From assembly GCF_010499255.1 (NCBI RefSeq), contig NZ_JAAGRN010000011.1, positions 1 to 64,000 of the forward strand: a DNA stretch of 64,000 bases, in the 5' to 3' direction. The position numbers were made by a program, and so were the translations under genes. A model generated the notes under the pieces. That model saw nothing but the letters and a program-made list of their open reading frames with translations, had not been told where the DNA came from and made no database searches. Origin of the DNA: Sheuella amnicola (GTDB lineage: Bacteria > Pseudomonadota > Gammaproteobacteria > Burkholderiales > Burkholderiaceae_B). Shown here piece after piece: positions 2,203-38,568 of the stretch. The first letter of the stretch is position 1; the number at the start of each line of letters is the position of its first letter.

Positions 2203-2312
2203 AGGGTCAGGGCTTATTGATGTAACTAGTTCGATTTACACCACGACTACCTGAATGACGTTAGCAACACTGGGTATTATTGTAGCAACTGGTAAATCAT
2301 AATTCAATGCTC

Positions 2313-3365: not shown

Positions 3366-3455
3366 TTATAACTCCTGTGGGTCAGGAGTGGGTCGAGCGA
3401 TAGTTTTTTAGTGATTAGTTGTTTAAAATCATGCAGTTATTCAACAATAGACTGG

Positions 3456-3502: not shown

Positions 3503-3509
3503 AATTCAT

Positions 3510-3896: not shown

Positions 3897-3956
3897 TTGG
3901 GCAAACCTATAATCGCCCCTATCTTCCTATCTGATTGAATGCTTTAGAGGTTTACC

Positions 3957-5234: not shown

Positions 5235-5237
5235 TCA

Positions 5238-5882: not shown

Positions 5883-5927
5883 TCAATATCCGTTCTTGTG
5901 AAAGGCAGCTAAGCGAAGCCCGTAGAG

Positions 5928-6971: not shown

Positions 6972-6991
6972 GACACGTTTTTAGATCAACA

Positions 6992-23838: not shown

Positions 23839-24288
23839 TCAGCAGCAAGCTTTAGGTTGGTAAGCGTTGATCAGGTCGACTTTGGGTTGTGAGCGTCCTC
23901 CGTCGAACGTACTTTTCAACCAGCTGTCCACAATCGCTTTTGCCAACTCAGGACCGACTACGCGTGCGCCAATCGTAATGATCTGGGCATCGTTGCTTCG
24001 ACTGGCTCGCTCGGCTGAATAAGTGTCGTGACACTGGGCCGCACGGATGCCCGGGACCTTGTTGGCCGAAATGGCCATGCCGATTCCGGTTCCGCACAAA
24101 AGTAATCCGCGTTCGAATTTTCCGGCTGCTACTTGTTCGGCCAAACCGAAAGCAACATTTGGATAGAGAACTGGCTTGGCATCATGAGTGCCGAAGTCGG
24201 TTACTTCGTGTCCGGCATCCTGAATGTGCTTTTTGAGTGTTTCTTTTAGATCATATGCTGCTTCGTCGCAGCCGATTGCGAGTTTCAT
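23839..24288 (-). CDS. RpiB/LacAB-family sugar-phosphate isomerase, EryI/DerI-like
   Basis: Probably interconverts D-erythrulose 4-phosphate and D-erythrose 4-phosphate rather than ribose 5-phosphate. The catalytic Cys lies in LLCGTGIGMAISANKVPG. Two histidines of E. coli RpiB are absent: GCDH reads GCDE here, and the ring-opening His-Asn pair near residue 99 reads SND. The stretch HDTYSAERASRSNDAQIIT resembles, from memory, the erythritol-pathway isomerase EryI. Open-chain tetrulose phosphates would not need the ring-opening His. It is the last gene of a four-gene leftward operon and follows the DhaK-DhaL kinase by 20 bases. Confidence 0.8.
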   Translation of the reverse strand: MKLAIGCDEAAYDLKETLKKHIQDAGHEVTDFGTHDAKPVLYPNVAFGLAEQVAAGKFERGLLLCGTGIGMAISANKVPGIRAAQCHDTYSAERASRSNDAQIITIGARVVGPELAKAIVDSWLKSTFDGGRSQPKVDLINAYQPKACC

Positions 24289-24308
24289 GTTTTTGTTTCC
24301 TTGACAAA

Positions 24309-26084
24309 TTAGTTCTTCATCGATGAGGTTGTCGAGAGGTGCTCAAGCAAACCTTGGGCCATGGCGTTCAGGATGAGAAAGCAGGACGTGGCGCCGGCGT
24401 CGAGAACGCCGATCGAACGTTCGCCCAGTCGAGCGGACCGGCCGATGCGTGCTTGCATGCTGAAAGTCGAATCTTTACCTTTTTCGGCTGCTCGGGACAT
24501 GGCTTGCAGGGCATCTTCGAAAGTTGCATTCGCTTTAATCTGTTCGTTGTAGGCACTGAGTGCCGGCGCCAGAGTATCGATCAAGGTCTTATCGCCTACT
24601 GTGGCATGACCCATTTGTTGCACCCGCTTGACGGCTTGCGACAAGGCCTCTCCGAAGAGTGCGGCATCCATCTGTCTGTAGGGTGAAAGGACTTCGACGA
24701 ATCCATTGAAAAAATTCCCGTACAGAGGTCCCATTGAGCCTCCGATGTCATCCATCAATGCTTCGGATAACTGTGTCAACGCAGATGGCAAGCGTAGCGC
24801 TTCGTTGCCCATCGCATCCAATCGTATTGCACAGCCGTTGAATCCTTTCGCCATGTTGATGCCATGATCCCCATCTCCAATCAGTCCGTCGATTTCACTC
24901 AGATACTGACGGTTGGCGACGATGGTCTTGATCATTTCCCGTACGATATTTCCGCAAGTGTTTAAATCAATCGTTGGGCCACTTAATTCGCGAAGGGTCT
25001 GTTTGTTTATTTTCTCGTCAGCGGTTGTTGTTGTTATTCTGGACTGCACCGTCTTGAATTCGACCTGAGGCAATTTAGCCCCGCCGATGGTGACGCCAAC
25101 GCTTTGGCACGGATGATTCAGGCAGGCGAGAAGTTCATCGTCGAGCTTCATGAGCGACAAAGTCACGCCCATCATTTCCAAGGACGTAAAGAGATTGCCG
25201 ACTAATTTGAAAGCGATATTGAAACCTTTGCTTTGCAAGCGCTGCGCGACTTCACCATAAAGGATGTATTGTTCCATCAAAGGCGTAGCGCCAAGTCCCG
25301 AAATCAGAACGGCGACACGATCTCCGCTGATGAAAGGCAGGTCCGGCAGCAGAGCGTCCAGCATTTGTTGCGCCATTTCGGAGGCGCTGACGGTTTTTTG
25401 CACATTGATGCCTGGCTCGCCGTGATGTCCGATACCGACTTCCATTGTGCCAATTTCGATCGAAAAATTCGCTTTGCCAACCGCCGGAATCACACAGGCG
25501 GACAGGCCGATACCGATGCTGCGCGTGGCATTGATTGCCTTCTGCGCAATGGCGATCACTTCATCCAAAGTGCCTCCGGCATCGGCTTTTGCTGCGCCGA
25601 CTTTCCACATCAGGATTTCTCCCGCTACACCACGACGCTTGGCTTCATCACCCCTAGGGGCGGAGGGTACATCATCGTTGGCAACGACGGTTTTGACCGT
25701 TATGTTTTCACGGGCAGCCATTTCGATGGCCATTTTGACGTTCATATTGTCGCCGGCATAGTTGCCGTAAAGACAGGCTACTCCCGCACCTCCATCCGCT
25801 GCCCGCATGGCATCGAGAAAACTTTTTGCGGTTGGGGAGGAAAAAATTTCTCCGATTGCGACAGCATCCACCATGCCATCGCCGACATATCCTAAAAATG
25901 CGGGTTCATGACCGGATCCCCCTCCGGTGATTATTCCAACCTTGCCTTGCTGCGGGGAGGATTTGCGCTTAATGACTCGAGGATTGTCTGTGGGGCTTAA
26001 CGAGTCCTGATGGGCTAACAACCACCCTTTCAACATATCTTCGACCACGAGGTCGGGATGATTGATGACGCGATTCATGGACAT
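24309..26084 (-). CDS. DhaK-DhaL fused ketose kinase (dihydroxyacetone kinase family)
   Basis: A 591-residue ATP-dependent kinase. The DhaK part holds GGGSGHEPAFLGYVGDGM near the start and GHHGEPGI, whose His binds the ketone covalently. The DhaL part (about 375 on) carries the Mg-ATP motif IGDGDHGINMAKG. Fused enzymes of this form include dihydroxyacetone kinases and the L-/D-erythrulose kinases LerK and DerK. The EryI-like isomerase next to it favours a tetrulose as substrate. Genes before and after lie within about 25 bases. Confidence 0.85.
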   Translation of the reverse strand: MSMNRVINHPDLVVEDMLKGWLLAHQDSLSPTDNPRVIKRKSSPQQGKVGIITGGGSGHEPAFLGYVGDGMVDAVAIGEIFSSPTAKSFLDAMRAADGGAGVACLYGNYAGDNMNVKMAIEMAARENITVKTVVANDDVPSAPRGDEAKRRGVAGEILMWKVGAAKADAGGTLDEVIAIAQKAINATRSIGIGLSACVIPAVGKANFSIEIGTMEVGIGHHGEPGINVQKTVSASEMAQQMLDALLPDLPFISGDRVAVLISGLGATPLMEQYILYGEVAQRLQSKGFNIAFKLVGNLFTSLEMMGVTLSLMKLDDELLACLNHPCQSVGVTIGGAKLPQVEFKTVQSRITTTTADEKINKQTLRELSGPTIDLNTCGNIVREMIKTIVANRQYLSEIDGLIGDGDHGINMAKGFNGCAIRLDAMGNEALRLPSALTQLSEALMDDIGGSMGPLYGNFFNGFVEVLSPYRQMDAALFGEALSQAVKRVQQMGHATVGDKTLIDTLAPALSAYNEQIKANATFEDALQAMSRAAEKGKDSTFSMQARIGRSARLGERSIGVLDAGATSCFLILNAMAQGLLEHLSTTSSMKN

Positions 26085-26107
26085 GGCTTCTCCGTGCCGG
26101 GATGGAA

Positions 26108-26983
26108 TTATTGGCCAAGTTGCTGAGAAACAAATTGCATGGCGTATTTCAGGGCCGACTCGATCGTTTCAAGCGGAACACGCTCGGCAGACCGATTCGG
26201 TTTGGAATCGGATTTGCGGTGCAATCGCAACGGCATTTCAATCGAAAGCGACAAATTCGTGGGTTTAACTGCTTGCACAATCGCTGCGCAATCGGCAACA
26301 CCAGCGTTTAAGGGTGAAAAGAAATAACCTTCGGGTCGGACTTGAACGTTTTTAATATGCGTGTGCAAGCAGTGCTGCATTGCGTCTAGTGCGTCTTGGG
26401 TCGGATCGACTGATGGACGATGTGAAATCGTGTTGCCTGCATCGTAGTTCAGGCCGACGCGCGGATGATTAATTTGAGCAAGAAGTTGCTCGGCATCTGC
26501 CGCTGTGTTGAGAAGATTGTCCGATCCATCGCCCGGATTTTCCAACCCGATCAGCATGTCCAGTTCGTCTGCATGAGCCGCCAGAACTGCGATGTTTTCA
26601 TAAAATCGATTTTCAGTCGCACGTGCGGAAGCGTTGGTATTGATTACGCGAGCGCCGATGCGCCGAGCGAAATCCATTCTGCCCTTAAACACTTCAATTG
26701 CATCTTCCCGGCCGAGATCGATGTGCGAAGAGAAAGCAAAGCAGCTGATGCCGTGATCTTTCAACCATGTGGCGTATTGAGTGGCATTTTTTTCAGTGAA
26801 AGTGCTTTCATCGAACGGTTCCGTGTAGCCGACGATGAAAGCGGGTTCTACGTGAGTTGCACCGATTTTTTTCAGGCTTTCCAGCATGGCCGGAAAACTG
26901 TAACCGTCATAAGGTGCGCCGGAAATCGAAACAATACGCTCTCCAGCGTTATCTCTGATGGCGGACGAAAGAATGGGGTGCAT
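26108..26983 (-). CDS. Xylose-isomerase-like TIM-barrel sugar isomerase/epimerase
   Basis: A 291-residue member of the AP-endonuclease-2 family. Metal-site residues are suggested by IGLENPGDG (Glu), GLNYDAGN (Asp), HTHIKNVQ (His) and LSIEMP (Glu) on successive barrel strands. The family includes hydroxypyruvate isomerases, ketose 3-epimerases and EryC of erythritol catabolism. In this operon a 3-epimerase or isomerase acting on tetrulose or tetrulose phosphate is the simplest role. An apiose isomerase is the main alternative. Confidence 0.75.
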   Translation of the reverse strand: MHPILSSAIRDNAGERIVSISGAPYDGYSFPAMLESLKKIGATHVEPAFIVGYTEPFDESTFTEKNATQYATWLKDHGISCFAFSSHIDLGREDAIEVFKGRMDFARRIGARVINTNASARATENRFYENIAVLAAHADELDMLIGLENPGDGSDNLLNTAADAEQLLAQINHPRVGLNYDAGNTISHRPSVDPTQDALDAMQHCLHTHIKNVQVRPEGYFFSPLNAGVADCAAIVQAVKPTNLSLSIEMPLRLHRKSDSKPNRSAERVPLETIESALKYAMQFVSQQLGQ

Positions 26984-27012
26984 AAAATGCCTTTAAAAAT
27001 GCAGATCGAGAT

Positions 27013-27762
27013 TTAGTGGATGAGCATTCCACCATTGCAGTCCAGCGTGATGCCGGTGCAGTATTTCGACAGATCGCTAGCCAGGAAAGTCACGCAGCCT
27101 GCGACATCGTCAGGCTCTCCAATGCGACCCAATGGAATACCATCGAGGATGGCTTGATGGCGGTCTGCAGGGATTTTTCCCTTGTTAATGTCGGTTGCAA
27201 TCAGACCGGGGGTGACGCAATTCACGCGAACACCGTTGCCGCCATAATCACGCGCGATGGCGCGAGCCAAGCCTAGGATGCCACCTTTGGCTGCAGAGTA
27301 GTGTGGGCCGCCCAGAATGCCGCCACCACGTTGCGCGGAAACCGAAGAAATGCAGATAATTGATCCGCTACCCTGTTTGATCATGCCGGGCAATACAGCT
27401 TGCGATACAAGCAGCGTACCGCGCAGGTTGACATCAAGCACAGCGTCGTAATCTTCTTCGGTAATGTCTAGCGTTCTGCGAGGTTGGGTAATGCCGGCAT
27501 TATTCAGCAGTACATCAATGCGTCCCGTTTTAGCGAGCGCTTCGGCTACGGCCTTTTCGACTGAGGCTTTTTTGGTGACATCGCCGACAACGCCTATGTG
27601 CTCTGGACCGAGGCGTGCGGCGGCCGCGGCAGGATCAGCCGCTTCCAGGTCCATGATGATGACTCGTGCGCCGTTCGCAGCCATCATGCGCGCACTGGCA
27701 AAACCAAGACCATTTAAACCAGCACCGCCGGTCACCAGGGCAACCTTGTTCTTTAACAGCAT
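27013..27762 (-). CDS. SDR-family polyol/sugar dehydrogenase
   Basis: A 249-residue classical short-chain dehydrogenase. The NAD(P) site appears as TGGAGLNGLGFASA, with Asp in IIMDLEA favouring NAD; NNAG is near residue 86 and the catalytic YSAAK near 155. It is first of four tightly spaced genes followed by isomerase, kinase and RpiB-like isomerase. A likely reaction is oxidation of a tetritol (erythritol, threitol) or related alcohol to the ketose. A start MLLKNKVALVTGG is normal for the family. Confidence 0.85.
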   Translation of the reverse strand: MLLKNKVALVTGGAGLNGLGFASARMMAANGARVIIMDLEAADPAAAAARLGPEHIGVVGDVTKKASVEKAVAEALAKTGRIDVLLNNAGITQPRRTLDITEEDYDAVLDVNLRGTLLVSQAVLPGMIKQGSGSIICISSVSAQRGGGILGGPHYSAAKGGILGLARAIARDYGGNGVRVNCVTPGLIATDINKGKIPADRHQAILDGIPLGRIGEPDDVAGCVTFLASDLSKYCTGITLDCNGGMLIH

Positions 27763-27891
27763 TTTGTCTGCTCCACTCTGTGATGAATAAGGGGCAGATT
27801 GTTGATTTTTTTAAAACGGCGTGCAATGCAGAAAAGCTCAACTCCCGTTGAATAATTTTCAATGACGGGGAAAATAAAACGGAACTAAGTG

Positions 27892-28776
27892 TTAACCCTG
27901 CCTGGCTTCGTTTTTCAGCCACTCAGTGAAGCGCACGACTCTAGGCCATTGGCTGTGTTGTTTGGGATAAACGATGTGATGCGCATGAACTGTAATAGGC
28001 TTGCGATCCGGAAAAACAGGAACAAGTTCCCCGCGCTTGATCGCCCCCTCGGCCATCTTACTGCTATCAAGGGCGATTCCCAGGCCTTGGACAGCGGCTT
28101 CAATCACCATGTAGGCCCGATCGAAACTCAATGCATAGCGACTTGGCGTGTTTGGAACCCCGTGGGCTGCGAACCATCGTGGCCATTGAACAATATTCAC
28201 ATCCGAAAATATCAGATCCTCTTTGAGCAGGTCTTCCGGAGTTTCTATTGAGAGATTGCTTTTCAGTGCGGGGCTGATCAGAGGGATGATTTCCTCCGGA
28301 AACAGGCTTTCGACATGAAGGCTTGGCCAATGGGCCAGACCATAACGGATATCGACATCGATTTCAGCTCGGGTGAAGTCCGATTCAAGGTGCGAGGATG
28401 AAAGTTGTACGCGAATGTCCGGGTGCAAAGCCCGAAAAGCCGATAATCGGGGCATCAGCCAGACCGAGGCAAAAGAGGGACTGGAGTGCAATCGAAGCAC
28501 TTCGACAGTTTCAGCTGATCGCGCTTGTTGGGCTGCGTTGGCAATGACATCCAGCGCTCCGGAAATTTCGCGTTGGAAACGGGCTCCCGCGGGCGTCAGT
28601 CGTAGCCCCGAGTGTGATCTTTCGAACAATGTACAACCGACAAAGGTCTCAAGATTCGTAATCTGATGGCTGACTGCAGATACCGTCAGATTCAATTCTT
28701 CGGCCGCTTTGCTAATGCTGCCTAGTCTGGCAACGACCTCCAGGGCAAGGATACTTTTAAAAGGTGGCAGACGCAT
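27892..28776 (-). CDS. LysR-family transcriptional regulator (GcvA-like)
   Basis: About 294 residues. The HTH spans FKSILALEVVARLGSISKAAEEL and the recognition helix region LTVSAVSHQITNLE; the co-inducer domain follows. I chose the ATG at 28776 because family members begin with R-L-P-P just before the first helix; an in-frame upstream start would add 21 atypical residues. It lies between two divergent arms of a sugar gene cluster and is probably its regulator, controlling both the SDR-kinase arm downstream and the transketolase arm across the intergenic region. Confidence 0.88.
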   Translation of the reverse strand: MRLPPFKSILALEVVARLGSISKAAEELNLTVSAVSHQITNLETFVGCTLFERSHSGLRLTPAGARFQREISGALDVIANAAQQARSAETVEVLRLHSSPSFASVWLMPRLSAFRALHPDIRVQLSSSHLESDFTRAEIDVDIRYGLAHWPSLHVESLFPEEIIPLISPALKSNLSIETPEDLLKEDLIFSDVNIVQWPRWFAAHGVPNTPSRYALSFDRAYMVIEAAVQGLGIALDSSKMAEGAIKRGELVPVFPDRKPITVHAHHIVYPKQHSQWPRVVRFTEWLKNEARQG

Positions 28777-28871
28777 GGGTAAACCCGAATAATAATTTTT
28801 TTCAAATAAAGTTGAACCATACCGCCTTGTCGACTTCACTGCATCTCACAATAATGCTGGAAATTCAAAAA

Positions 28872-28918
28872 ATCAATTGGAGACGGGCAGAGGGTTTTTC
28901 CTGTGTCTAAGAATTGAT
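28872..28918. promoter_or_regulatory. Candidate LysR operator: two-part inverted repeat
   Basis: ATCAATT (28872-28878) and AGAC (28881-28884) are mirrored by GTCT (28905-28908) and AATTGAT (28912-28918). The arms span 47 bases in the divergent region between the LysR gene and the transketolase gene, centred about 70 bases before the latter. LysR regulators bind such long interrupted dyads, but the centre is wider than a simple T-N11-A site. Confidence 0.5.
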
Positions 28919-28965
28919 CGTCTTCCTGATTTATCTCACTCTAAAACAGATATTTATTCCAACCT

Positions 28966-29808
28966 ATGACTGAATTGATTGAATCGCTCAAGGCGCGCGC
29001 TTATCGCATCCGTCGCTTTGCCTTAAGGATGGGTGAAGTGCAAGGGCAGGGCTATATCGGTCAAGCGCTTGGCATGGCTGATATTCTGGCCGTTGCATAT
29101 GGCCACGCCATGCGATTCGAGCCCAAGGATCCGCATTGGGAAGGGCGTGACCGCTTTCTTTTGTCGCATGGTCACTATGCCATCGCCCATTATGCCGCCT
29201 TAATCGAGGCCGGCATTATCGACGAAGAGGAGTTGGAGACTTATGGCTGCGATGATAGCCGTCTCCCGATGTCAGGCATGGCGACCTATACCCCCGGGAT
29301 GGAGATTTCCGGCGGATCGCTTGGACAAGGGTTGAGTATCGGAGTGGGGATGGCGTTGGGTTTGCGTCAGAAGCGTAATCCGGCGTTCATTTACAACTCC
29401 ATGTCCGACGGCGAGCTTGATGAAGGTTCGACTTGGGAGGCAGCCATGTCTGCTGCCCATCATAATTTGTCGAACCTGATCGTGCTGGTTGATATCAATA
29501 ATCAGCAAGCGGATGGAAATTCGAACCAGATACTGCGTTTCGAACCGATTGCAGACAAATGGCTGGCTTTTGGTTGGCATGTTCAGCGCGTGGATGGCAA
29601 CGATATCAAGGCGGTACTGAATGCTTTTGACGAGGCTAGGCAAACCAAGGTGAATCAGCCTCGCGTGATTTTGTTCGATACCTTGATGGGTAAGGGCGTT
29701 CCTTTTCTGGAGCAGCGGGAAAAGAATCACTTTATTAGAGTGGATGCAGGCGAATGGCAAAGTGCCATTTCGATTCTGGATGCCGCAAATCAGGGAGTTT
29801 CGAAATGA
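28966..29808 (+). CDS. Transketolase-like subunit A (N-terminal, TPP-binding)
   Basis: A 280-residue protein equal to the first third to half of transketolase. The TPP/Mg motif appears as MSDGELDEGSTWEAAMSAAH then VLVDINNQQ. Upstream are RDRFLLSHGHYAIAHYA and GGSLGQGLSIGVGMALG, both typical. Its stop overlaps the ATG of subunit B (ATGA). Split transketolases occur in apulose-4-phosphate (AptAB) and sulfosugar (SqwGH) pathways and as general enzymes. With an erythrulose-type operon across the promoter, a substrate such as erythrose 4-phosphate or apulose 4-phosphate is plausible. Confidence 0.88.
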   Translation: MTELIESLKARAYRIRRFALRMGEVQGQGYIGQALGMADILAVAYGHAMRFEPKDPHWEGRDRFLLSHGHYAIAHYAALIEAGIIDEEELETYGCDDSRLPMSGMATYTPGMEISGGSLGQGLSIGVGMALGLRQKRNPAFIYNSMSDGELDEGSTWEAAMSAAHHNLSNLIVLVDINNQQADGNSNQILRFEPIADKWLAFGWHVQRVDGNDIKAVLNAFDEARQTKVNQPRVILFDTLMGKGVPFLEQREKNHFIRVDAGEWQSAISILDAANQGVSK

Positions 29809-30806
29809 GCGCAGATCAAAAAACTGTCAAACCACGTTTGACCACTTCTGCGATGATTGCGTCCATTGCCAGTGAAGGTCAGCGCGTGCGCGCAGCGCCT
29901 TTTGGCAAAGCGCTTGTGGAGTATGCCGCAGATCGCCCTGAAGTCGTCGGAATGACCGCTGATCTTGCGAAATACACCGACTTGCATCTGTTCGCCCAAG
30001 CGTATCCCGATCGGTTCTTCCAGATGGGAATGGCAGAGCAATTGTTGATGGGGGCTGCAGGGGGAATGGCCAAGGAAGGGTTCATTCCGTTTGCCACGAC
30101 GTATGCGGTGTTCGCATCTCGACGCGCATATGATTTTGTTCATCAAGTGATCGCGGAAGAGAATTTGAACGTCAAGTTGGCTTGCGCGTTGCCCGGACTG
30201 ACTTCCGGTTATGGACCGAGTCACCAGGCGACAGAAGATATCGCGATGATGCGCGGCATCCCCAATTTGACGATCATCGATCCATGCGATGCATTGGATG
30301 TCGAGCAAATGGTACCCGCGGCGATCGAACACAAAGGCCCGGTCTATATGCGTTTGCTCAGAGGCCAAGTGCCTCTGGTTCTGGATGAATACGACTATAA
30401 GTTCGAGATTGGTCGCGCCAAGATGCTGCGTGACGGAAAGGATGTGTTGATTATTTCCAGCGGCATCATGACGATGCGAGCGCTGGAAGTCGCCAATGAA
30501 ATGGCCGGAGGCGCCGCCGAAGTGGCTGTCTTGCATGTCCCGACAATCAAGCCACTGGATACGGACACAATTTTGCGCGAGGCGTCTCGCTCCGGACGGA
30601 TGGTCATTGTTGCCGAAAATCATTCGGTAATCGGTGGGCTTGGCGAGGCAGTCGCCGGGGCGCTCATGCGTGCGCGCATCAGCCCTGAGTTTCATCAAAT
30701 CGGATTGCCTGATCGCTTTTTGGATGCGGGCGCATTACCAACCTTGCATGATCGTTACGGAATTTCGACTGCATCGATCGTCACTTTCATCAAGAGCAAG
30801 CTTTGA
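29805..30806 (+). CDS. Transketolase-like subunit B (C-terminal)
   Basis: A 333-residue protein with the pyrimidine-binding and C-terminal domains of transketolase. The Glu that activates TPP lies in RFFQMGMAEQLLMGAAGGMA. FATTYAVFASRRAYDFVHQ and LTSGYGPSHQATEDIAMMR follow the family, and GLGEAVAGAL sits in the C-terminal domain. I chose the ATG at 29805 because it overlaps the A-subunit stop; an upstream in-frame ATG would lie inside subunit A. The two subunits must assemble to make a full active site. Confidence 0.88.
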   Translation: MSADQKTVKPRLTTSAMIASIASEGQRVRAAPFGKALVEYAADRPEVVGMTADLAKYTDLHLFAQAYPDRFFQMGMAEQLLMGAAGGMAKEGFIPFATTYAVFASRRAYDFVHQVIAEENLNVKLACALPGLTSGYGPSHQATEDIAMMRGIPNLTIIDPCDALDVEQMVPAAIEHKGPVYMRLLRGQVPLVLDEYDYKFEIGRAKMLRDGKDVLIISSGIMTMRALEVANEMAGGAAEVAVLHVPTIKPLDTDTILREASRSGRMVIVAENHSVIGGLGEAVAGALMRARISPEFHQIGLPDRFLDAGALPTLHDRYGISTASIVTFIKSKL

Positions 30807-30883
30807 TGCGCGTGTTTTATGTGCATCGTAGGTTCTAGTTTTCAAACAAACTGGATTATTTATTTCAACCGAGGAGACAAAGA

Positions 30884-31870
30884 ATGAAATCCTTCAGCAA
30901 ATCCGTTGCCCTGACGTCATTGGTTCTAGCAGCATGGGGTGCGCAAGCGCAAACCAAACTGACGTTGGGCCACAATGCCGCCGTCGGCAATCCTAAACAC
31001 GAAGCCTCGGTGAAGTTTGCCGAACTGGTCAATCAGAAAAGCAACGGCAAATATGTCGTTCAGGTCGCGCCGGCCGCTCAGCTTGGCGACGATGTGCCGA
31101 TCCTGACTTCGTTGCGTAACGGTAGCGTGGATTTTGCCGCGAACTCGCAAGGCTCTATATCGACCGTTGTTCCCGAATATGCCGCTTTTGGCATGCCGTT
31201 CCTGTTCCCGAATTTGCCCACCGCATGGAAGGTTCTCGATGGCCCGGTTGGAGCCGAACTGGCGAAAGCCACCGAAGGCAAAGGCATGGTTGTTCTGGGA
31301 TATTGGGATAATGGCATCCGTCATATCTCTAACAATACCCGGCCGATCAATGCTCCTGCCGACTTGAAAGGATTGAAAATCCGCACACCGCCCGATGCCG
31401 TGACGATCGACATCATCAAGGCGCTTGGTGGCGAGCCTGAGCAGATCAAGTTTTCTGAACTGTATGTCGCTTTGCAGCAGGGTGTCGTAAATGGACAGGA
31501 AAATCCGTTGATGAACATTTGGTCGTCAAAGTTGTACGAAGTCCAGAAAAACATTTCGATGACTGCGCACAAATACGAGATGACTCCTTTTGTCATGTCG
31601 AAGCGGACTTACGACAAAATGTCGGAAGCTGATCGCAAGATGATTCGCGAAGCGGCAGCGGAGGCGACCAAGTACAACCGTCAACTGTCATTGGAGTCGG
31701 ATAACAAGCTGGAGGGTGAATTGAAAGCCAAGGGTGTGGCGATCAATCGTCCGGACCTCGCTCCGTTCAATGCCGCGACCGCTTCGGTCACCGACAAGTG
31801 GATCGCAGGCCCTCAAGGCAAGTTTGTCAAGCAAGTGGTTGACGCTGCCAAGCAGGCGCGCGGTAATTAA
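30884..31870 (+). CDS. dctP: TRAP transporter substrate-binding protein (DctP family)
   Basis: A 328-residue periplasmic receptor with signal peptide ending at GAQAQT. It follows DctP folds: LGHNAAVGNPKHEASVKFAE at the start, NGSVDFAANSQGS, and the conserved Arg in LKGLKIRTPP that forms a salt bridge with a carboxylate in most ligands. GVVNGQENPLMNIWSSKLYEV is also typical. The kept Arg suggests the imported substrate is an acid, for example a sugar acid. dctQ follows after 20 bases. A GAGGAGA ribosome-binding site precedes the ATG. Confidence 0.93.
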   Translation: MKSFSKSVALTSLVLAAWGAQAQTKLTLGHNAAVGNPKHEASVKFAELVNQKSNGKYVVQVAPAAQLGDDVPILTSLRNGSVDFAANSQGSISTVVPEYAAFGMPFLFPNLPTAWKVLDGPVGAELAKATEGKGMVVLGYWDNGIRHISNNTRPINAPADLKGLKIRTPPDAVTIDIIKALGGEPEQIKFSELYVALQQGVVNGQENPLMNIWSSKLYEVQKNISMTAHKYEMTPFVMSKRTYDKMSEADRKMIREAAAEATKYNRQLSLESDNKLEGELKAKGVAINRPDLAPFNAATASVTDKWIAGPQGKFVKQVVDAAKQARGN

Positions 31871-31890
31871 TTCAGCCAGGATTTCACCCT

Positions 31891-32415
31891 ATGAACGTAT
31901 TGCTTAAAACTTGCGATGTCATCGATACAGTCATCCAAAAAATCTGTCGGATCGTTTTGTATGCGACGACTGTTGTGCTTTTTCTGGTGCTGACGATCAA
32001 CGTGTTTTTGCGTTACTTGCTTGGAAATAGCTTGAGTTCGGCGGGTGAAATCCCTGAATTGATATTCCCCTGGCTGGTGATGGCGGGAGTGGTGCTGGCT
32101 GCTCAGCATGGCTCGCACATCGCCATTTCATGGTTCGTCGACAAATTAACCGATTCGATGCGCAAAGTAGTTGCCGTTTTGAATTGCGCAATTTTGGTCG
32201 CAGCGTATAGCGCGTTGGCGTGGGGCACATATACGCTTATGCCAATTGTCAGCGACGAAAGAACACAGGTTTTGAAAGTGCCTTCTTCCGTCACTTATTC
32301 ATGCATGCTGATTGCATTTGTCTTTCTTGTTGTCACATCGCTTACCCAGATGGCGAGGTTGTTCGTTTCAAAAGCACCTGCGCCTCCTGCGATGAATATT
32401 TCTGAAGCGGTTTGA
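31891..32415 (+). CDS. dctQ: TRAP transporter small permease (DctQ family)
   Basis: A 174-residue inner-membrane protein with four hydrophobic segments. NVFLRYLLGNSLSSAGEIPELIF is split over the first two helices, and the AAQHGSHIAISWFVDKL loop matches DctQ. It forms the membrane complex with DctM. Spacing on both sides (20 and 16 bases) marks one operon. Confidence 0.93.
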   Translation: MNVLLKTCDVIDTVIQKICRIVLYATTVVLFLVLTINVFLRYLLGNSLSSAGEIPELIFPWLVMAGVVLAAQHGSHIAISWFVDKLTDSMRKVVAVLNCAILVAAYSALAWGTYTLMPIVSDERTQVLKVPSSVTYSCMLIAFVFLVVTSLTQMARLFVSKAPAPPAMNISEAV

Positions 32416-32431
32416 GACTAAAGGATAAATC

Positions 32432-33697
32432 GTGCTATCAACTATTACTTTTGTCGCATTCCTCGCGCTTGCCTTGCTGGGCCTACCGATTGCGCACGCA
32501 CTGATCGTCGGCGCCGAGCTTGGTTTGCTTCCTTCGGATCGTCTTGGAGTTGAATTCATCGTCACGCAGCTGGTGACGCAGACCCAGAGCTTTCCTCTGA
32601 TCGCGATTCCATTTTTCATGTTGACTGGCTCACTGATGGTCGGCGGAAAGCTTGGGCAGCACTTGATCGATTTGTTGACCACGCTGATGGGAAGGTTTCA
32701 TGGCGGTCCTGCTCAGGTTGGCGTACTTTCGTCGACGATTTTCGGTGGCGTTTCCGGCTCCGCAGTTGCGGATGCTTCGGCAATTGGTTCTTTGTTGATT
32801 CCATGGTTAAAAAAGCTAGGGTATCCCTCGGCATTTTCCGCCGGTACATTAGCAGCAGCCGCGACGATCGATATTTTGATTCCGCCCTCGATTCCGATGA
32901 TTATCTATTCTCTGGTTTCGAACGCATCGATCGGCGCCTTGTTCGTTGCCGGTATTTTGCCGGGTATCATCATGTGCGTAGGCTTCATGCTGGTTTGCTA
33001 TATCCAAGGCCGACGTCGCAATTTTCCAAGAGATAACACCCCTTTCAATTGGAAAAGTTTCAATGCACAACTCTTTTATTCCATGCCAGCGTTGGCATTG
33101 CCGATTCTGATCATCATCTTTTTGCGATTTGGCATTGCGACGCCGACTGAAGTCAGCGTGATGTCCACCTTGTACGCCCTGATCGTTTCGTTGACGATCT
33201 ACCGCGATTTGACGCTTGCCCGCCTTAAGCATTCCATTATCGATGCCGGCTTGGCCACATCGGTTGTGATGCTGATTATTATGGCTTCAAGTGTTATTGG
33301 CTGGATTCTTACATTCGAGCAATTACCCGCGACTTTTGTCGAATTTGCCCAGAACTCGCTCGGTCATCCCTGGATGATTATTCTTGCAATGAACGTGATT
33401 ATGCTTGCGGTTGGCATGTTCATTGATTTGCCCGCCGCCGTGCTGTTGTTGACGCCGATGTTTGTTCCGTTGGCAGATGCGATTGGCATGGACACGGTTC
33501 AACTCGGGATTATGATGATCATCAACCTTTCGATTGGCCTGTATCATCCTCCTGTGGGGACCACACTATTCATCACCAGCTCTATTGCCAAGGTGAAGAT
33601 GGGCAAGGTTGTCATCGAACTGATTCCTTTTTATTTCGTCGCCATTGGTATTCTGATGCTGTTTAGCTTCGTACCGGCGATGACTTTGCGAATGTAG
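32432..33697 (+). CDS. dctM: TRAP transporter large permease (DctM family)
   Basis: A 421-residue permease with about 12 hydrophobic segments. FPLIAIPFFMLTGSLM, FGGVSGSAVADASAIGSLLIP and AATIDILIPPSIPMIIYS are DctM hallmarks; the last contains the sodium/substrate region. A GTG start at 32432 is supported by AAAGGA at the right distance. It completes a DctPQM importer that uses the sodium gradient. The next gene begins 9 bases after its stop. Confidence 0.95.
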   Translation: MLSTITFVAFLALALLGLPIAHALIVGAELGLLPSDRLGVEFIVTQLVTQTQSFPLIAIPFFMLTGSLMVGGKLGQHLIDLLTTLMGRFHGGPAQVGVLSSTIFGGVSGSAVADASAIGSLLIPWLKKLGYPSAFSAGTLAAAATIDILIPPSIPMIIYSLVSNASIGALFVAGILPGIIMCVGFMLVCYIQGRRRNFPRDNTPFNWKSFNAQLFYSMPALALPILIIIFLRFGIATPTEVSVMSTLYALIVSLTIYRDLTLARLKHSIIDAGLATSVVMLIIMASSVIGWILTFEQLPATFVEFAQNSLGHPWMIILAMNVIMLAVGMFIDLPAAVLLLTPMFVPLADAIGMDTVQLGIMMIINLSIGLYHPPVGTTLFITSSIAKVKMGKVVIELIPFYFVAIGILMLFSFVPAMTLRM

Positions 33698-33706
33698 AGA
33701 GCTGAA

Positions 33707-34600
33707 ATGCAAAATGTATCGGGCACTGCCAAGACTTCTGTCGGATTGATCGGCTTAGGCGCCATGGGGCGCGGAATTGCACAAAACCTATTAGCCAAAG
33801 GATTTGCGGTTGTCGGTCGTGACGTCAACCCCGATGCTTTGAAATGGCTCGAATCCGTCGGTGGGAGTTCAGGTCAGCAAGCGCGTGAGATGGCTGATAT
33901 GTGCCAAGTCATCGTCAGCTTCGTTGTCAACGATAAGCAGACGGAGGAAGTTCTCTTTGGCGAAAATGGTTTGGCTGCGGTCATGCGGCCTGATTCGGTT
34001 TTCATTGCCTGTAGCACATTGCCCCCCCAGTATGTGAAAGAGCTTGGCGCACGCTTGGCTGAGAAGAAGATTCATTTGATCGACTCCCCGGTGACTGGCG
34101 GAAAAGTTGGTGCCGAAAAAGGCACGCTTACAGTGATGGTTGCAGGTGAAGAGGCGATTTTCGAACGCGTCAAACCCGTGTTGTCCACATTCGGTGCGAG
34201 ATTGTTCTTTCTTGGCACCGAGCATGGAAAAGGCAGCCAGATGAAGGTAATCAATCAGTTGCTGTGTGGTGTACACATTGCTGCTGCGGCTGAAGCGCTT
34301 GCGATGGCACGGGAAAATGGTCTTCCCATGGAAACTACCTTGGAAATCCTCAAAAGCGGCGCTGCATCTTCCTGGATGCTAGGTGATCGCGGCCCGCGCA
34401 TGGTGACCGAGAAATATGATGATGTTTTATCCGCTGTCGATATTTTCGTTAAGGATCTGGGATTGGTTCTGGACGCAGCGCGTCAAAGCACTTTTGCGGC
34501 CCCGATGGCTCATGCCGCTTTCCTGCAGTTTATAGAGGCAAGCGGACATGGAATGGGGCGATTGGATGATGCCGCAGTCATCAACAATTACAAAAAATAA
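33707..34600 (+). CDS. L-threonate dehydrogenase-like oxidoreductase (beta-hydroxyacid DH family)
   Basis: A 297-residue NAD-dependent dehydrogenase. The Rossmann motif is GLIGLGAMGRGIAQNL, followed by FVVNDKQTEEVLFGENG, DSPVTGGKVGAEKGTLT, the catalytic Lys in GSQMKVINQLLCGVHIA, and SAVDIFVKDLGLV. The last two stretches closely resemble LtnD (L-threonate dehydrogenase) as I remember it. The probable reaction is oxidation of a C4 sugar acid at C2. Tartronate semialdehyde or sulfolactaldehyde reductases are relatives and remain possible. It follows the TRAP genes directly. Confidence 0.82.
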   Translation: MQNVSGTAKTSVGLIGLGAMGRGIAQNLLAKGFAVVGRDVNPDALKWLESVGGSSGQQAREMADMCQVIVSFVVNDKQTEEVLFGENGLAAVMRPDSVFIACSTLPPQYVKELGARLAEKKIHLIDSPVTGGKVGAEKGTLTVMVAGEEAIFERVKPVLSTFGARLFFLGTEHGKGSQMKVINQLLCGVHIAAAAEALAMARENGLPMETTLEILKSGAASSWMLGDRGPRMVTEKYDDVLSAVDIFVKDLGLVLDAARQSTFAAPMAHAAFLQFIEASGHGMGRLDDAAVINNYKK

Positions 34601-34652
34601 CTATTTCGAATAAATAAAAAGCGTCCGAATACCTTGGACGAACTTGGGAATC

Positions 34653-35825
34653 ATGCAGCCTAGCCGTGTATTCAACAACATCAACAGACTTGTTCAAGGA
34701 CGAGGCTGCATCGCAACGCTATCAGATGAGGTCGCCCGACTAAGAGGTCGTCGGGTGATGATCGTCACCGATACAGGTTTGGTCAAGACAGGCATCCCCG
34801 ATGCCGTGGCCGCTTCGATTGTAGGTTGCGAGGTGTTTGTCTATTCGGATGTCGAATCGGATCCAAGCGTCGAAAGTGTAGATGCTTGTGCTCGTGTCGT
34901 TGTCGAGAAAAAAATTGATCTCTTGATTGGCTTGGGAGGTGGAAGTCCGATCGATACTGCCAAATGCGCATCGATCATCGCAACCAATGGCGGCAAAACG
35001 GAAGATTATCTTGGAATTGAAAAAGTCCCGTTGCCTGGATTGCCCAAGATATTTATCCCGACCACTGCGGGAACCGGAAGCGAGGTGACGAATGTCGCCG
35101 TGCTGAGCCTGAAGTCCCTGAAAACCAAAAAGGGGATCGTCAGTCGTTTTTTAATGGCTGATACGGCGATGCTTGACCCTGAATTGACGGTCGGGTTGCC
35201 CGGATTCATCACTGCTGCCACCGGAATGGATGCGTTGACTCACGCGATCGAGGCGTATGTTTCAAAATTTGCCCAGCCCTTGACTGATTATTTTGCTATT
35301 GAGGCAATCAAGCTGATCTCGCGTCACTTGCGTACGGCAGTTCATCAAGGGTCGGATATTGATGCGCGCGAGCATGTACTGACCGGAAGTCTCTATGCGG
35401 GACTTGCTTTTGGTAGCGCAGCTACAGGCATGGTGCATGGATTAGCGATGCCGATGGGTGGGTTATATGGCATTGCGCATGGCATCGCAAATGCCGTGTT
35501 ATTACCGCATGTCATGCGATTCAATATGATCGCTTCGTTAGAGCGATTTGCGCAGATTGCTCGAGCCATGGGTGAGCCGGTCGACGGATTGAGTTTGCGT
35601 GATGCCGCTGAGGCAGCGGTTCGCGCTGTCGAGTCGTTATCTGCAGACATCGGGATTCCACGTTATGTGGATGAGCTTGGCGTGCCACGTGAGGGAATCG
35701 AGTTAATGGCGCGTGATGGCATGACTAACACCAGACAGGTATTGCCGAACCCAAGGGAGGTGACGATTGAAGGCTTGCTTGGAATATTGGAGCAAGCATT
35801 TTCACCTGTAAATGAGCCAAAATAA
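34653..35825 (+). CDS. Iron-containing (group III) alcohol dehydrogenase
   Basis: About 390 residues. It has the NAD-binding GLGGGSPIDTAKCASI, then PTTAGTGSEVTNVAV, and metal ligands in DALTHAIEAYVS, GMVHGLAMPMG and YGIAHGIANAVLLP. These enzymes oxidise or reduce short alcohols, aldehydes and hydroxy acids such as lactaldehyde or 4-hydroxybutyrate. I chose ATG 34653 over the in-frame TTG at 34644 because GGGAA sits just before it. It is the last gene of the rightward arm and is followed by a terminator. Confidence 0.9.
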   Translation: MQPSRVFNNINRLVQGRGCIATLSDEVARLRGRRVMIVTDTGLVKTGIPDAVAASIVGCEVFVYSDVESDPSVESVDACARVVVEKKIDLLIGLGGGSPIDTAKCASIIATNGGKTEDYLGIEKVPLPGLPKIFIPTTAGTGSEVTNVAVLSLKSLKTKKGIVSRFLMADTAMLDPELTVGLPGFITAATGMDALTHAIEAYVSKFAQPLTDYFAIEAIKLISRHLRTAVHQGSDIDAREHVLTGSLYAGLAFGSAATGMVHGLAMPMGGLYGIAHGIANAVLLPHVMRFNMIASLERFAQIARAMGEPVDGLSLRDAAEAAVRAVESLSADIGIPRYVDELGVPREGIELMARDGMTNTRQVLPNPREVTIEGLLGILEQAFSPVNEPK

Positions 35826-36030: not shown

Positions 36031-37017
36031 ATGATGCGACGCATCAACCCCGTCCATGCCATTGGCGCACTGATACTGGCTTTCACTAACTCTCTTGCGT
36101 TTGCACAGTCGACAAATTATCCAGATAAGCCGGTGACCCTTGTTGTGGGATATGCCCCCGGTGGTGCAACGGATCGAGTGGCAAGATTGATGGCCAAGGT
36201 TTTGACCGAGCAGACCAAGCAGACATTCATCGTCGAAAATAAACCCGGTGCTAACAGCAACATCGCGGCAGAACAGGTGGCACGATCAAAACCGGACGGT
36301 TATACGCTGATGGTCGGCTCTATTGCCAATACGATCAACCGATCGCTTTATACCAAGCTGAACTACGACCTGCTTAAAGATTTCACCATGGTCGGTATGC
36401 TGGCTTCTGTGCCCAATGTTTTGGTGGTTAACCCGAATGTCCCGGCCAAAACGGTGTCCGAATATATCGCTTTTGCAAAAGCGAATCCGGGCAAACTTAG
36501 TTGTGCATCCTCGGGAAGCGGATCTTCCGTTCATTTGTCATGCGAGCTGTTCAAAATGGAAACCGGAACGGATATTTTGCATGTTCCCTACAAAGGAAGC
36601 GGACCTGCGGTCACTGATCTGGTGGGAGGACAGGTTGATTCGATGTTTGATAATTTCCCTGCATCGGTCAATCAAATTCGCAGCGGTAAGTTGCGCGCGC
36701 TTGGTGTGACCAATGCAGTACGGCTGCCTTTTGCGCCCGAGTTGCCAACACTTGCCGAGTTAGGCTTGACTGGTTTTTCTGTGAACTCCTGGTTTGCGAT
36801 CATGGCCCCGTCCGGTACGCCCGCAGATGTTGTCGCAAAGATCAACGCGTTAGTTAATCAGGCTTTGGCCACCAAGGAAATCAAGGAGGCTTACTTCGAT
36901 GCGGGTTATATCGAACCGGAAAAGCCCAATACACCGGCTTCTTTTAATGCATTCGTGTTGAGTGAAGTCGAACGTTGGGCCAAAGTCGTTAAAAAGGCCA
37001 ATATCAAGGTGGATTAA
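36031..37017 (+). CDS. Bug-family (TctC-like) periplasmic substrate receptor
   Basis: A 328-residue receptor with signal peptide ending at SLAFAQS, then NYPDKPVTLVVGYAPGGATD, FIVENKPGANSNIAAE and KPDGYTLMVG, the Bug carboxylate-binding loops. It heads an operon with an acyl-CoA synthetase and two SDRs, so its ligand is probably a carboxylic acid that is then activated with CoA. No membrane components are nearby. GGAGA precedes the ATG. Confidence 0.9.
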   Translation: MMRRINPVHAIGALILAFTNSLAFAQSTNYPDKPVTLVVGYAPGGATDRVARLMAKVLTEQTKQTFIVENKPGANSNIAAEQVARSKPDGYTLMVGSIANTINRSLYTKLNYDLLKDFTMVGMLASVPNVLVVNPNVPAKTVSEYIAFAKANPGKLSCASSGSGSSVHLSCELFKMETGTDILHVPYKGSGPAVTDLVGGQVDSMFDNFPASVNQIRSGKLRALGVTNAVRLPFAPELPTLAELGLTGFSVNSWFAIMAPSGTPADVVAKINALVNQALATKEIKEAYFDAGYIEPEKPNTPASFNAFVLSEVERWAKVVKKANIKVD

Positions 37018-37062
37018 TCCACTGTCGCAATAGCATTTCGAACAATTCAAGAAGGTTTTCAG

Positions 37063-38568
37063 GTGTATCCAATCGATTTCTTTTTTCGGGCTGCAAAGCT
37101 GTATCCGGACAATATCGCCTTGCAAAGCTCCGGGTTGACTTTGACATATCGGCAACTTTCAAGCCATGTCAATGCATTCGCCGCGGCGATGCAAGCTGTC
37201 GATCCGGAGCCACAATCTCGCGTGGCAATCTGCGCAGCGAATTCGGTACAGCATGCCGCTGCCATATTGGCGGTGCTGGCTGCAGGTAAGGTGTGGGTGC
37301 CATTGAATGCTCGCAGCACGCAGTCCGAGATTGCCAGGATTCTGGATACGATTGAACCGACAATCGTCATCACGGATGCGAAAGGTTCGGAATTGGTTGG
37401 TTCTTGCTCCGCAACTTGGCTTCGTTTGGATCAGGCAGGGGATGATAGGGATTTGCATGTCGACCAGTTGTTAACCAGATACGCAGGCCAATTACCTGCC
37501 GCTAATGAAGCTGGGGAAGAGGGCGTTCAGGCAATCAAATTTACCGGCGGTACCACTGGTTTACCCAAGGGTGTGATGCAACCCTACCGTGCATGGACGG
37601 CGGGAATTATCAATCAGGTCAGTGGTTGGCAAATTACTTCGGATGATTGTTTCGTGGTCACTGCGCCTGTGACGCACGGGACTTCCACTTATATTTTGCC
37701 CTTATTGGCCGAAGGGGCCAAGTTGCTGTTTCTCGATAAAACGGATCCGGCTTCAGTCATAAGAGCATTTCGCGAGGAAGGAGGCACAATGAGTTTTATG
37801 CCTCCAACCCTGATTTACATGGTGATGGCAGAACCGGGCGTTTCGCCTGCAGATTTTCCGAAATTACGAAATCTGATTTATGGTGGCGCGCCCATGCCAA
37901 CCGAAAAGGTCGATCAACTGCGGGCTTTTTTCGGCGATGTGGTTGGTACAACATATGGTCAAACAGAAGCTCCGCAAATTGTCACAATGATGCGCCCGAG
38001 TGGATTCAAAGACCCTCGCAACAGCGGGTCGGTCGGTCGCTGTACCTGGCTTTCGGATGTCGGAATTATGTCCCCGGATGGTCGGCTGCTACCGGATGGA
38101 AGTCTTGGCGAGGTGGTGGTGCGCGGCCATTTGGTCATGAAAGGCTATTGGCGTCTGCCTGAAAAGACCGCAGAGACTATTGTCGATGGTTGGCTGCATA
38201 CGGGGGATGTCGGACTGATCGATGACCGAGGGTATCTATTTTTGAAAGATCGGATTCGTGATGTGATCATTACGGGCGGATTCAATATTTATCCGACGGA
38301 TGTTGAAAACGTATTGTCCCAACACCCAGCTGTTTATGAGTGCGCCGTCTTTGGTGTGCCCGATGAAAAATGGGGCGAGGCCGTTCATGCCGCTGTGCAA
38401 TTGCAGGTTGGCGTGGTATGTGACGAAGACTCTCTCAAGGCTCACATCAAGCAACTATTGGGCTCTGTGCACACGCCAAAGAAAATTCATTTTCTGGATC
38501 AACTTCCGCGGTCCTCGGTCGGCAAGGTGCTTAAGACCGCGATTAGAGAAGCGATTAGTAAATCATGA
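37063..38568 (+). CDS. AMP-forming acyl-CoA synthetase/ligase
   Basis: A 501-residue member of the ANL superfamily. It carries the P-loop IKFTGGTTGLPKGVM near 159-173, YGQTEAPQI, GWLHTGDVGLIDDRGYLF, and the C-terminal catalytic Lys region SSVGKVLK. It activates a carboxylic acid to its CoA thioester through an acyl-AMP. The GTG at 37063 has GAAGG at the right distance. Acid specificity (fatty, aromatic or branched) is not clear; the neighbouring Bug receptor and SDRs suggest an imported hydroxy or cyclic acid. Confidence 0.92.
   Translation: MYPIDFFFRAAKLYPDNIALQSSGLTLTYRQLSSHVNAFAAAMQAVDPEPQSRVAICAANSVQHAAAILAVLAAGKVWVPLNARSTQSEIARILDTIEPTIVITDAKGSELVGSCSATWLRLDQAGDDRDLHVDQLLTRYAGQLPAANEAGEEGVQAIKFTGGTTGLPKGVMQPYRAWTAGIINQVSGWQITSDDCFVVTAPVTHGTSTYILPLLAEGAKLLFLDKTDPASVIRAFREEGGTMSFMPPTLIYMVMAEPGVSPADFPKLRNLIYGGAPMPTEKVDQLRAFFGDVVGTTYGQTEAPQIVTMMRPSGFKDPRNSGSVGRCTWLSDVGIMSPDGRLLPDGSLGEVVVRGHLVMKGYWRLPEKTAETIVDGWLHTGDVGLIDDRGYLFLKDRIRDVIITGGFNIYPTDVENVLSQHPAVYECAVFGVPDEKWGEAVHAAVQLQVGVVCDEDSLKAHIKQLLGSVHTPKKIHFLDQLPRSSVGKVLKTAIREAISKS

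Follow-up and report, generated by a model that had tools for sequence, protein, structure and literature searches.

A putative sugar-acid gene cluster pairing a ketose kinase arm with a split transketolase in Sheuella amnicola

Described relatives and the Sheuella amnicola locus

Tetritol use is served by an erythrulose kinase, a dehydrogenase and the isomerase DerI (EltD, LerK, LerI and DerI; PMC10733421). The sulfo-transketolase SqwGH consists of two subunits, takes an unphosphorylated anionic ketose as its donor and is accompanied by an isomerase acting on the C4 product (PMC11659671), and AptAB of the D-apiose route is likewise a two-subunit transketolase (PMC13001218). A locus that recalls these systems lies at positions 23839–35825 of a 64,000-nucleotide stretch of Sheuella amnicola DNA (assembly GCF_010499255.1, contig NZ_JAAGRN010000011.1, positions 1–64,000 of the forward strand), the whole of which is referred to as the window. 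It is composed of two arms, one encoding a short-chain dehydrogenase/reductase (SDR), a triosephosphate isomerase (TIM) barrel protein, a DhaK-DhaL fusion kinase (DhaKL) and an RpiB-family isomerase, the other a split transketolase (TktN and TktC, together TktNC), a tripartite ATP-independent periplasmic (TRAP) importer (DctPQM), a 3-hydroxyisobutyrate dehydrogenase (HIBADH) family enzyme and an iron-containing alcohol dehydrogenase (Fe-ADH), with a LysR gene in addition. The locus is a conserved gene set, apparently undescribed and probably for sugar-acid breakdown, and every component is a member of a known family. We tentatively read it, with slightly less than even confidence, as a regulon for sugar-acid catabolism whose two outlets, a tetrulose kinase arm and a TktNC enzyme acting on the free ketone, are linked.

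Open frames and family models recovered all of the genes named for this region by the sequence-only reading, an earlier interpretation made from the DNA letters and their translations:

23839–24288, minus strand: RpiB-family sugar-phosphate isomerase (PF02502, 184.3 bits; TIGR01120 rpiB, 148.8, passing the cut-off of 138.65)
24309–26084, minus strand: DhaK-DhaL fusion ketose kinase (Dak1, 371.6 bits; Dak2, 170.9 bits)
26108–26983, minus strand: TIM barrel protein of an unnamed subfamily (AP_endonuc_2, 78.3 bits)
27013–27762, minus strand: SDR dehydrogenase (adh_short_C2, 211.5 bits)
27892–28839, minus strand: LysR regulator, GcvA-like (GcvA model, 268.4, under the cut-off of 288)
28966–29808, plus strand: TktN, thiamine diphosphate-binding half of the split transketolase (Transketolase_N, 145.3 bits)
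29805–30806, plus strand: TktC, pyrimidine and C-terminal half (Transket_pyr, 118.6 bits; Transketolase_C, 85 bits)
30884–31870, plus strand: DctP, TRAP binding protein (TIGR00787, 302.3, cut-off passed)
31891–32415, plus strand: DctQ, small TRAP permease (YiaM model, 51.8, under the cut-off of 260)
32432–33697, plus strand: DctM, large TRAP permease (TIGR00786, 422.4, cut-off passed)
33707–34600, plus strand: HIBADH-family beta-hydroxyacid dehydrogenase, L-threonate-dehydrogenase-like (NF043037, 330.6, under the cut-off of 350)
34644–35825, plus strand: Fe-ADH, SarD/ErcA/FucO-like (best models 335.7 and 332.7, far under their cut-offs)

The leftward operon RpiB-DhaKL-TIM-SDR has intergenic gaps of 20, 23 and 29 nt. 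The LysR gene shares its strand, 129 nt upstream of the SDR gene, and is divergent from tktN, with 126 nt between them; inverted repeats were searched for around it and none was convincing. The start of tktC is the ATG at 29805, which overlaps the tktN stop, the 350-aa open frame beginning further upstream.

Co-occurrence of the arms and properties of their proteins

A profile built from an alignment of six TIM proteins fetched 51 loci when run against 84,980 species, each represented by a single genome. With flanks of at most 10 kb, and with minimum identities of 60% for TktN and/or TktC, 55% for the SDR and 43.0% for HIBADH, the transketolase clade was present in 22 of these loci, DhaKL in 31, and both together in 14. 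RpiB was found in 18, DctP in 23, a LysR match in 29 and the SDR, a frequent partner of the transketolase, in 26; HIBADH reached its cut-off in 13, and homologues at 43–47% (a rounded 43% included) occur in 21. Among the 40 loci of at least 15 kb, 17 carry the transketolase, 27 the kinase and 11 both, and a locus ending within a tktN at 84% (L030) was left out of the transketolase count. In four loci (L032, L034, L035 and L040, two of them from Polaromonas) a LysR gene stands beside one run SDR-DctP-DctQ-DctM-(HIBADH)-TIM-DhaKL-RpiB-TktN-TktC, with HIBADH in L034 and L040, and the 22 transketolase-bearing loci include members of Polaromonas, Sphaerotilus, Ideonella, Agrobacterium, Shinella, Aureimonas, Aurantimonas, Lichenibacterium, Zobellella and Kushneria. 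The 51 loci are not independent, comprising for example 11 alike Rhizobium loci without the transketolase and two loci (L054 and L055) on a single contig. When 399 genomes were sampled from the order, the genome of the window was the one in which the TIM protein occurred (E ≤ 1e-20), and seven had the TktN clade (E ≤ 1e-80). Since both are rare in the order and yet 22 of the 51 TIM loci carry the transketolase, their association exceeds chance neighbourhood, and the co-occurrence of the two arms in other genomes, on which the sequence-only reading had staked its proposal, is indeed seen.

A tblastn search of plasmids with the TIM protein returned 21 records, of which the neighbourhoods of nine were examined, two unannotated ones by tblastn. 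Both arms lie on plasmids of Sphaerotilus sulfidivorans and Shinella (L008 and L009), and a Photobacterium plasmid locus has TIM, SDR, TktNC, TRAP and HIBADH genes without DhaKL. The Shinella locus (L009, 16691–18793) also has, adjacent to its main kinase genes, a gene annotated as a sugar-binding transcriptional regulator joined to a DhaK subunit. In Paracoccus marcusii, fetched by TktN, the TktNC, SDR and TRAP genes adjoin a DhaKL gene (40%) and one annotated as coding for a TIM barrel protein; the latter gave no tblastn match to the window TIM protein, nor did the TIM protein of the S. meliloti TktNC locus match it. A different but conserved arrangement is seen in 15 Rhizobium/Sinorhizobium loci (L010, L011, L012, L014, L048–L050, L053–L056, L059–L061 and L074), which combine LysR-TIM-DhaK(-DhaL) with TRAP, HIBADH and a 282-aa alpha/beta hydrolase and have no transketolase arm, four of them on plasmids of Phaseolus isolates. 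Among the literature matches listed there was no description of the gene set as a whole, subscription papers lying largely outside that search.

Compared with E. coli TktA, TktNC carries tyrosine for H26, serine for H100, threonine for S385 and tyrosine for F434, in the window and in 29 of 29 relatives. Arg358 is unmatched, His461 and Asp469 are lost in the window and all 29 relatives, and Arg520, His66, His261 and His473 are kept, leaving R520 as the only survivor of the canonical pocket set (H26, H100, R358, S385, H461, D469 and R520). The H26Y change in E. coli TktA reportedly shifts stereochoice towards D-erythrulose, which is not counted as support here. All seven canonical residues are kept in the full-length transketolase found elsewhere in the same genome, on contig C4. 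Because two pocket histidines are replaced throughout the relatives and several phosphate contacts are lost, TktNC is, judged by its residues, not a spare housekeeping copy, and from the same loss of phosphate contacts we infer that the clade serves unphosphorylated donors. An E. coli TktA engineered at 358, 461 and 520 proved 55.3% more active on 5-ketogluconate (PMC12016104); set against that enzyme, the window TktNC differs at 358 and 461, and R520 is retained. The dedicated split transketolase foreseen from the sequence is thus borne out, the canonical one sitting elsewhere, while the accompanying idea that it merely takes erythrose 4-phosphate finds no support in so remodelled a pocket. 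In three loci from genomes of the order (L100, L103 and L105) a second transketolase, apparently full-length, adjoins the SDR-TRAP-TktNC core; it keeps His26, His100, His461 and Arg520, though not Asp469, and would fit a need for extra closing flux.

The nature of the imported substrate is best approached through DctP, in which R146, R167 and N207 are invariant in 28 of 28 proteins, align with SiaP and 4p47, and correspond at an alignment offset of 6 to Arg152, Arg173 and Asn213, the carboxylate contacts of 4P47 (PMC11668362). Ligands of the surveyed 4P47-related structures, most of them co-purified, include pantoate, erythronate, galacturonate and glucuronate, and the same site is able to hold a sulfonate, the isethionate protein IseP keeping these residues (PMC11668362), which would also allow a sulfonate as ligand of the window DctP; the TRAP arginine has been described as confining ligands to carboxylates (PMC4646407). 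The predicted DctP fold (mean predicted local distance difference test score, pLDDT, 90.9) lies near many TRAP proteins, sialic-acid binders among them, so that it does not indicate the substrate; among its fold neighbours, 7bbr/7bco alone are called 'sugar acid binding protein' in the title text seen. The ligands of 4p9k, 4pdh and 4pdd we take to be D-erythronate, again without counting this as support. Some loci have major facilitator superfamily (MFS) proteins in place of the TRAP importer, and the six examined scored best as D-galactonate family members (L021, L022 and L104) or shikimate-type metabolite/H+ symporters (L018, L019 and L101), all under cut-offs. These sequence features indicate an acid as the imported substrate and a carboxylate-type DctPQM. 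The polyol previously suggested as substrate is unsupported, given the carboxylate-type DctP and the acid-type MFS replacements.

In the kinase, the DhaK active site is kept (G53, H56, S80, D109 and H218 in E. coli numbering), the ketone-binding histidine H218 being present together with the H56 and D109 equivalents. Lys104 is replaced by glycine in the window and 41 of 41 relatives. An additional histidine precedes the ketone-binding one in the window and in 34 of the 41, all at least 57% identical; the other seven (at most 44% identity) have isoleucine there, as in E. coli, and include Klebsiella and Kushneria kinases beside Tpi-type genes. One same-genus genome (L090) has a DhaKL interrupted by a single in-frame TGA, a possible pseudogene or sequencing error. 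The model for DerI, D-erythrulose-4-phosphate isomerase (cut-off 240), scores 182.9 for the window RpiB, 226.3 for that of Propionivibrio (L041), 179.1 for the beta-proteobacterial L035, whose RpiB is nearer plain RpiB, and 243.8 for Agrobacterium L047, which thus passes the cut-off and carries both arms. RpiB follows DhaKL also in loci without the transketolase (L026, L027, L028 and L031), so its substrate is most likely the DhaKL product; that product would then carry no charge beyond its phosphate, and the simplest candidate is a tetrulose phosphate. In Kushneria, TRAP-TIM-SDR genes are flanked by those for DhaKL, RpiB, Tpi-type proteins and a sugar ATP-binding cassette (ABC) transporter. 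Of the four-carbon scheme put forward by the sequence-only reading, the C4 idea itself is partly supported by the Agrobacterium isomerase and the Kushneria context, and the polyol is not supported.

Residues E148, D181, H209 and E249 of the TIM protein, which we take to be its metal ligands, are invariant in 29 rows, and the protein is probably metal-dependent. In its predicted fold (mean pLDDT 94.1) it most resembles enzymes of the UlaE and D-tagatose 3-epimerase types (TM, template-modelling score, about 0.7; 12–18% identity), and a single weak PDB sequence match was found, so that the protein may act as an epimerase, an isomerase or a decarboxylase. The EryC-type epimerase proposed earlier is not supported: the erythritol-type locus of Rhizobium pRL12 has a TIM gene, assigned as EryC by position, to which BLAST gave no significant match. 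The Fe-ADH is loosely attached, a 63% homologue occurring near TRAP-HIBADH genes only in Aureimonas glaciei (L051). There the order DctPQM-HIBADH-CoA-transferase (CaiB type, a 662-aa frame)-FeADH at 489–7371 is the context closest to that of the window. An aldehyde dehydrogenase adjoins both Zobellella clusters.

The source genome (3.18 Mb, 36 contigs, 98.65% complete; the window lies on contig C11) places these enzymes in perspective. The window RpiB is its sole RpiB and the window DhaKL its sole Dak1 protein; RpiA is encoded on C8, so that RpiB is dispensable for housekeeping, and the window transketolase and RpiB are additional to the housekeeping set. One DUF1537 (SBD_N) protein, on C3 rather than C11, scores as the 3-oxo-tetronate kinase OtnK (627.7, cut-off 350), and near it, in C3:51000–63000 (L097, 3611–6625), lies the D-erythronate dehydrogenase DenD (348.8, cut-off 325). 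Judged from these two models, the ordinary D-erythronate route is probably already in the genome. Rfam and tRNA searches gave no match. Elsewhere in the window, the region 3' of the operon (36031–40135) encodes a Bug-type binding protein, an AMP-forming acyl-CoA ligase and two SDRs, which as a set have no counterpart beside the operon in the relatives mapped, and an integrase-like frame (2313–3365) with a helicase/primase-like frame (104–1402), both judged by eye, suggests a mobile element near the left end.

A proposed two-outlet pathway and its rivals

Activities, substrate and regulation are predictions in what follows; gene content, conservation, co-occurrence, pocket changes and carboxylate-type transport residues are directly supported. 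DctPQM would import a small sugar acid, which the SDR (or HIBADH in some relatives) would oxidise and the TIM protein, as epimerase or decarboxylase, would turn into an unphosphorylated hydroxymethyl ketone, most likely D-erythrulose formed by CO2 loss from a C5 beta-keto acid. Judging from their families, DhaKL would phosphorylate this ketone and RpiB isomerise the product to D-erythrose 4-phosphate. TktNC would meanwhile transfer the C2 unit of the same free ketone onto glyceraldehyde 3-phosphate, the products being xylulose 5-phosphate and a short aldehyde, for instance glycolaldehyde. This aldehyde may be dealt with by the Fe-ADH, or in Zobellella by the neighbouring aldehyde dehydrogenase. 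The housekeeping transketolase converts xylulose 5-phosphate and erythrose 4-phosphate to fructose 6-phosphate and glyceraldehyde 3-phosphate. It would in this way join the two outlets and return the glyceraldehyde 3-phosphate, for a predicted net conversion of 2 erythrulose + ATP to fructose 6-phosphate + glycolaldehyde + ADP. On this scheme the transketolase arm would consume an acceptor that the kinase arm replenishes, which would explain the pairing of the arms. As the balance closes without extra input, the joint model is preferred over two separate pathways, an argument from arithmetic and not evidence.

A number of observations weigh against this scheme. The C5 acid and its decarboxylation come from carbon counting alone, and for none of the enzymes was a close homologue of characterised function matched. 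The residues read at 461 and 469 depend on the alignment (C/A/F/S and G in one, L and Y in another), and the window RpiB scores slightly higher as plain RpiB (191.1 bits) than as DerI (182.9). Sugar-type ABC ATPases of the xylose/ribose family near TIM in L058, L064, L067, L068, L069 and L072, three of them Kushneria loci, speak for neutral sugars there. By the cut-offs used, nine of the 51 loci have none of DhaKL, RpiB, the transketolase or the SDR, these nine including one with uncounted DhaKL and RpiB pieces (L073) and one at a contig end (L075). The best HIBADH model, L-threonate dehydrogenase (330.6, under its cut-off of 350), and erythronate among the ligands of 4P47-neighbourhood homologues (PMC11668362) point as much to a C4 acid, and on these an unlikely but substantial alternative can be built, in which 3-oxo-tetronate would be formed by the SDR and the LtnD-like enzyme, either without further help or via an OtnI-like TIM protein. 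TktNC would then move a C2 unit and leave glyoxylate, or CO2 loss would give dihydroxyacetone for DhaKL to convert to dihydroxyacetone phosphate, RpiB only aiding pentose-phosphate recycling. In a C4 acid the beta-carbon adjoins CH2OH, so that either dehydrogenase could supply TktNC, as is suggested by clusters with the SDR alone and others with HIBADH alone, and the Rhizobium-type loci combine HIBADH, TIM and DhaKL without the transketolase. The separate DenD and OtnK pair of this genome argues against the tetronate route, as does the persistence of RpiB with DhaKL in loci without the transketolase, RpiA being encoded elsewhere. The scheme of the sequence-only reading, with a neutral C4 polyol or ketose passing from the SDR through DhaKL and RpiB to erythrose 4-phosphate and TktNC as an extra ordinary transketolase for it, is improbable: it accords with the part played by a dehydrogenase, an erythrulose kinase and DerI in tetritol use (PMC10733421), with the DerI-class RpiB of Agrobacterium and with the sugar ABC transporter in Kushneria, yet it is at odds with the carboxylate-type TRAP and acid-type MFS proteins, with a TktNC pocket lacking canonical contacts, with SDR and TktNC occurring without the kinase arm in some stretches examined, and with the lack of any Tpi-type match among the window cluster proteins or of an EryC match.

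The separate occurrence of the arms likewise counts against a joint scheme. DhaKL occurs without the transketolase in 17 of the 51 loci, 11 of which are the mutually similar Rhizobium loci that encode HIBADH and an alpha/beta hydrolase, and the transketolase without DhaKL in eight. Variovorax, a Comamonadaceae plasmid, Klebsiella pneumoniae, Chimaeribacter and genomes of the order have TktNC with an SDR and a transporter, and with no TIM or kinase gene in the stretch examined. In Pantoea, Klebsiella aerogenes and L101 the companions of TktNC are HIBADH and an MFS protein; the six other genomes of the order with the TktN clade show no TIM/kinase arm in 8.7–18 kb. In the window's genus TIM-DhaKL-RpiB is present in five of 61 genomes searched, the window's included, with an SDR visible in two of the four other short loci, and two same-genus loci (L098 and L099, on the same contigs as L026 and L027) have no transketolase arm in 12 and 20 kb. 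On a TktNC tree of 45 rows, of which 39 are distinct, 10 changes account for the kinase-arm label, where shuffled labels average 13.2 and 18 of 500 shufflings go as low, and the TIM-only label is unclustered (500 of 500). In favour of the joint scheme, the window TktNC groups with five kinase-arm loci at support 92/83, on a branch not starred, and where TIM and TktNC are both present their distances correlate (Mantel r 0.5 for n = 25, a value reached in 0 of 2000 permutations), in a test of the kind that related rows inflate. As either arm is also found without the other, they are modules that have been joined repeatedly. From these separate occurrences, and the tree on which the kinase label is gained or lost many times, one could argue for two separate pathways side by side, SDR-TRAP-TktNC-HIBADH splitting a C5/C6 sugar acid to tartronate semialdehyde or tetruronate and TIM-DhaKL-RpiB serving something else; we find this improbable, because both arms share one gene run in four loci, SDR and LysR accompany both kinds of cluster, and TIM, SDR and transketolase occur without DhaKL and RpiB in six of the 51 loci (one of which, L044, is cut just after TIM). 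A D-apiose (AptAB-type) or sulfosugar (SqwGH-type) route is highly improbable: both use two-subunit transketolases (PMC13001218, PMC11659671), but AptAB differs in identity, pocket residues and neighbours, and the SqwGH motif is unmatched by our mapping, as detailed below.

Two further ideas were set aside, namely a hexonate model in which TktNC leaves tetruronate, since DhaKL and RpiB would have no neutral substrate, and glycerate/hydroxypyruvate as TktNC donor, for which the chemistry is possible and no reason to bypass glycerate kinase is apparent. The joint scheme, taken to its full extent, would make TktNC a natural transketolase family for an unphosphorylated, sugar-acid-derived ketone, coupled to a tetrulose kinase arm that restores the acceptor in an undescribed two-outlet cycle spread over Alpha-, Beta- and Gammaproteobacteria; to this wider claim we lend rather little confidence. 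Were it true, a range of Proteobacteria from soil, fresh water and plants would gain a further sugar-acid pathway, and the type of pocket that engineers have sought for keto-sugar-acid donors would be available in a natural clade of transketolases, its changes shared by 29 of 29 relatives. Tetrose transporters and kinases have been called unreported (PMC12780249), and the window set may offer candidate genes for tetrose handling.

Comparison with known systems

With the D-apiose pathway (AptAB and AplK) the window has the two-subunit transketolase in common. E. coli SE15 AptAB is 35%/30% identical to the window TktNC and keeps H26 and H100, and membership of the window enzyme in the AptAB group is ruled out by these identities and pocket residues; AptAB is moreover flanked by an FGGY kinase and an ABC importer without counterpart in the window cluster, so that the apiose alternative once entertained for this DNA is a poor fit. 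The sulfo-transketolase pathway (SqvD, SqwGH and SqwI) has, like the pathway proposed for the window, a two-subunit transketolase for an unphosphorylated ketose and an isomerase for a C4 product, SqwI being presumably RpiB-like. It differs in that the window has a kinase and, by our mapping, other pocket residues, the SqwGH motif RAFDR (PMC11659671) being unmatched in a mapping in which the SqwGH sequences themselves were not compared. No sulfosugar gene was noticed among the annotated window proteins, no dedicated search having been made. The nearest solved relative of TktN is the Carboxydothermus-type split transketolase (PDB 6yak, E 1.5e-61), whose type uses an RSFHR motif for phosphate (PMC11659671) that is missing from the window by the same mapping. 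The L-threonate/D-erythronate pathway (LtnD or DenD, OtnI, OtnK and OtnC) resembles the window in its LtnD-like dehydrogenase and its sugar-acid import, and differs in its DUF1537 kinase, absent from the window's contig, DenD and OtnK being located on C3.

The tetritol/tetrulose pathways (LerK/DerK, LerI, DerI and EltD; EryABC-HI) remain a close parallel. LerK and DerK are presumably DhaK-type, and DerI we took to be RpiB-type, as model NF051858 bears out. The window cluster has no LerI/Tpi match, its TIM protein is unmatched to EryC and its RpiB falls under the DerI cut-off. Like those pathways, it would combine a dehydrogenase with an erythrulose kinase and a DerI-like isomerase leading to erythrose 4-phosphate; unlike them, it possesses a carboxylate-type TRAP importer and a dedicated, remodelled split transketolase.

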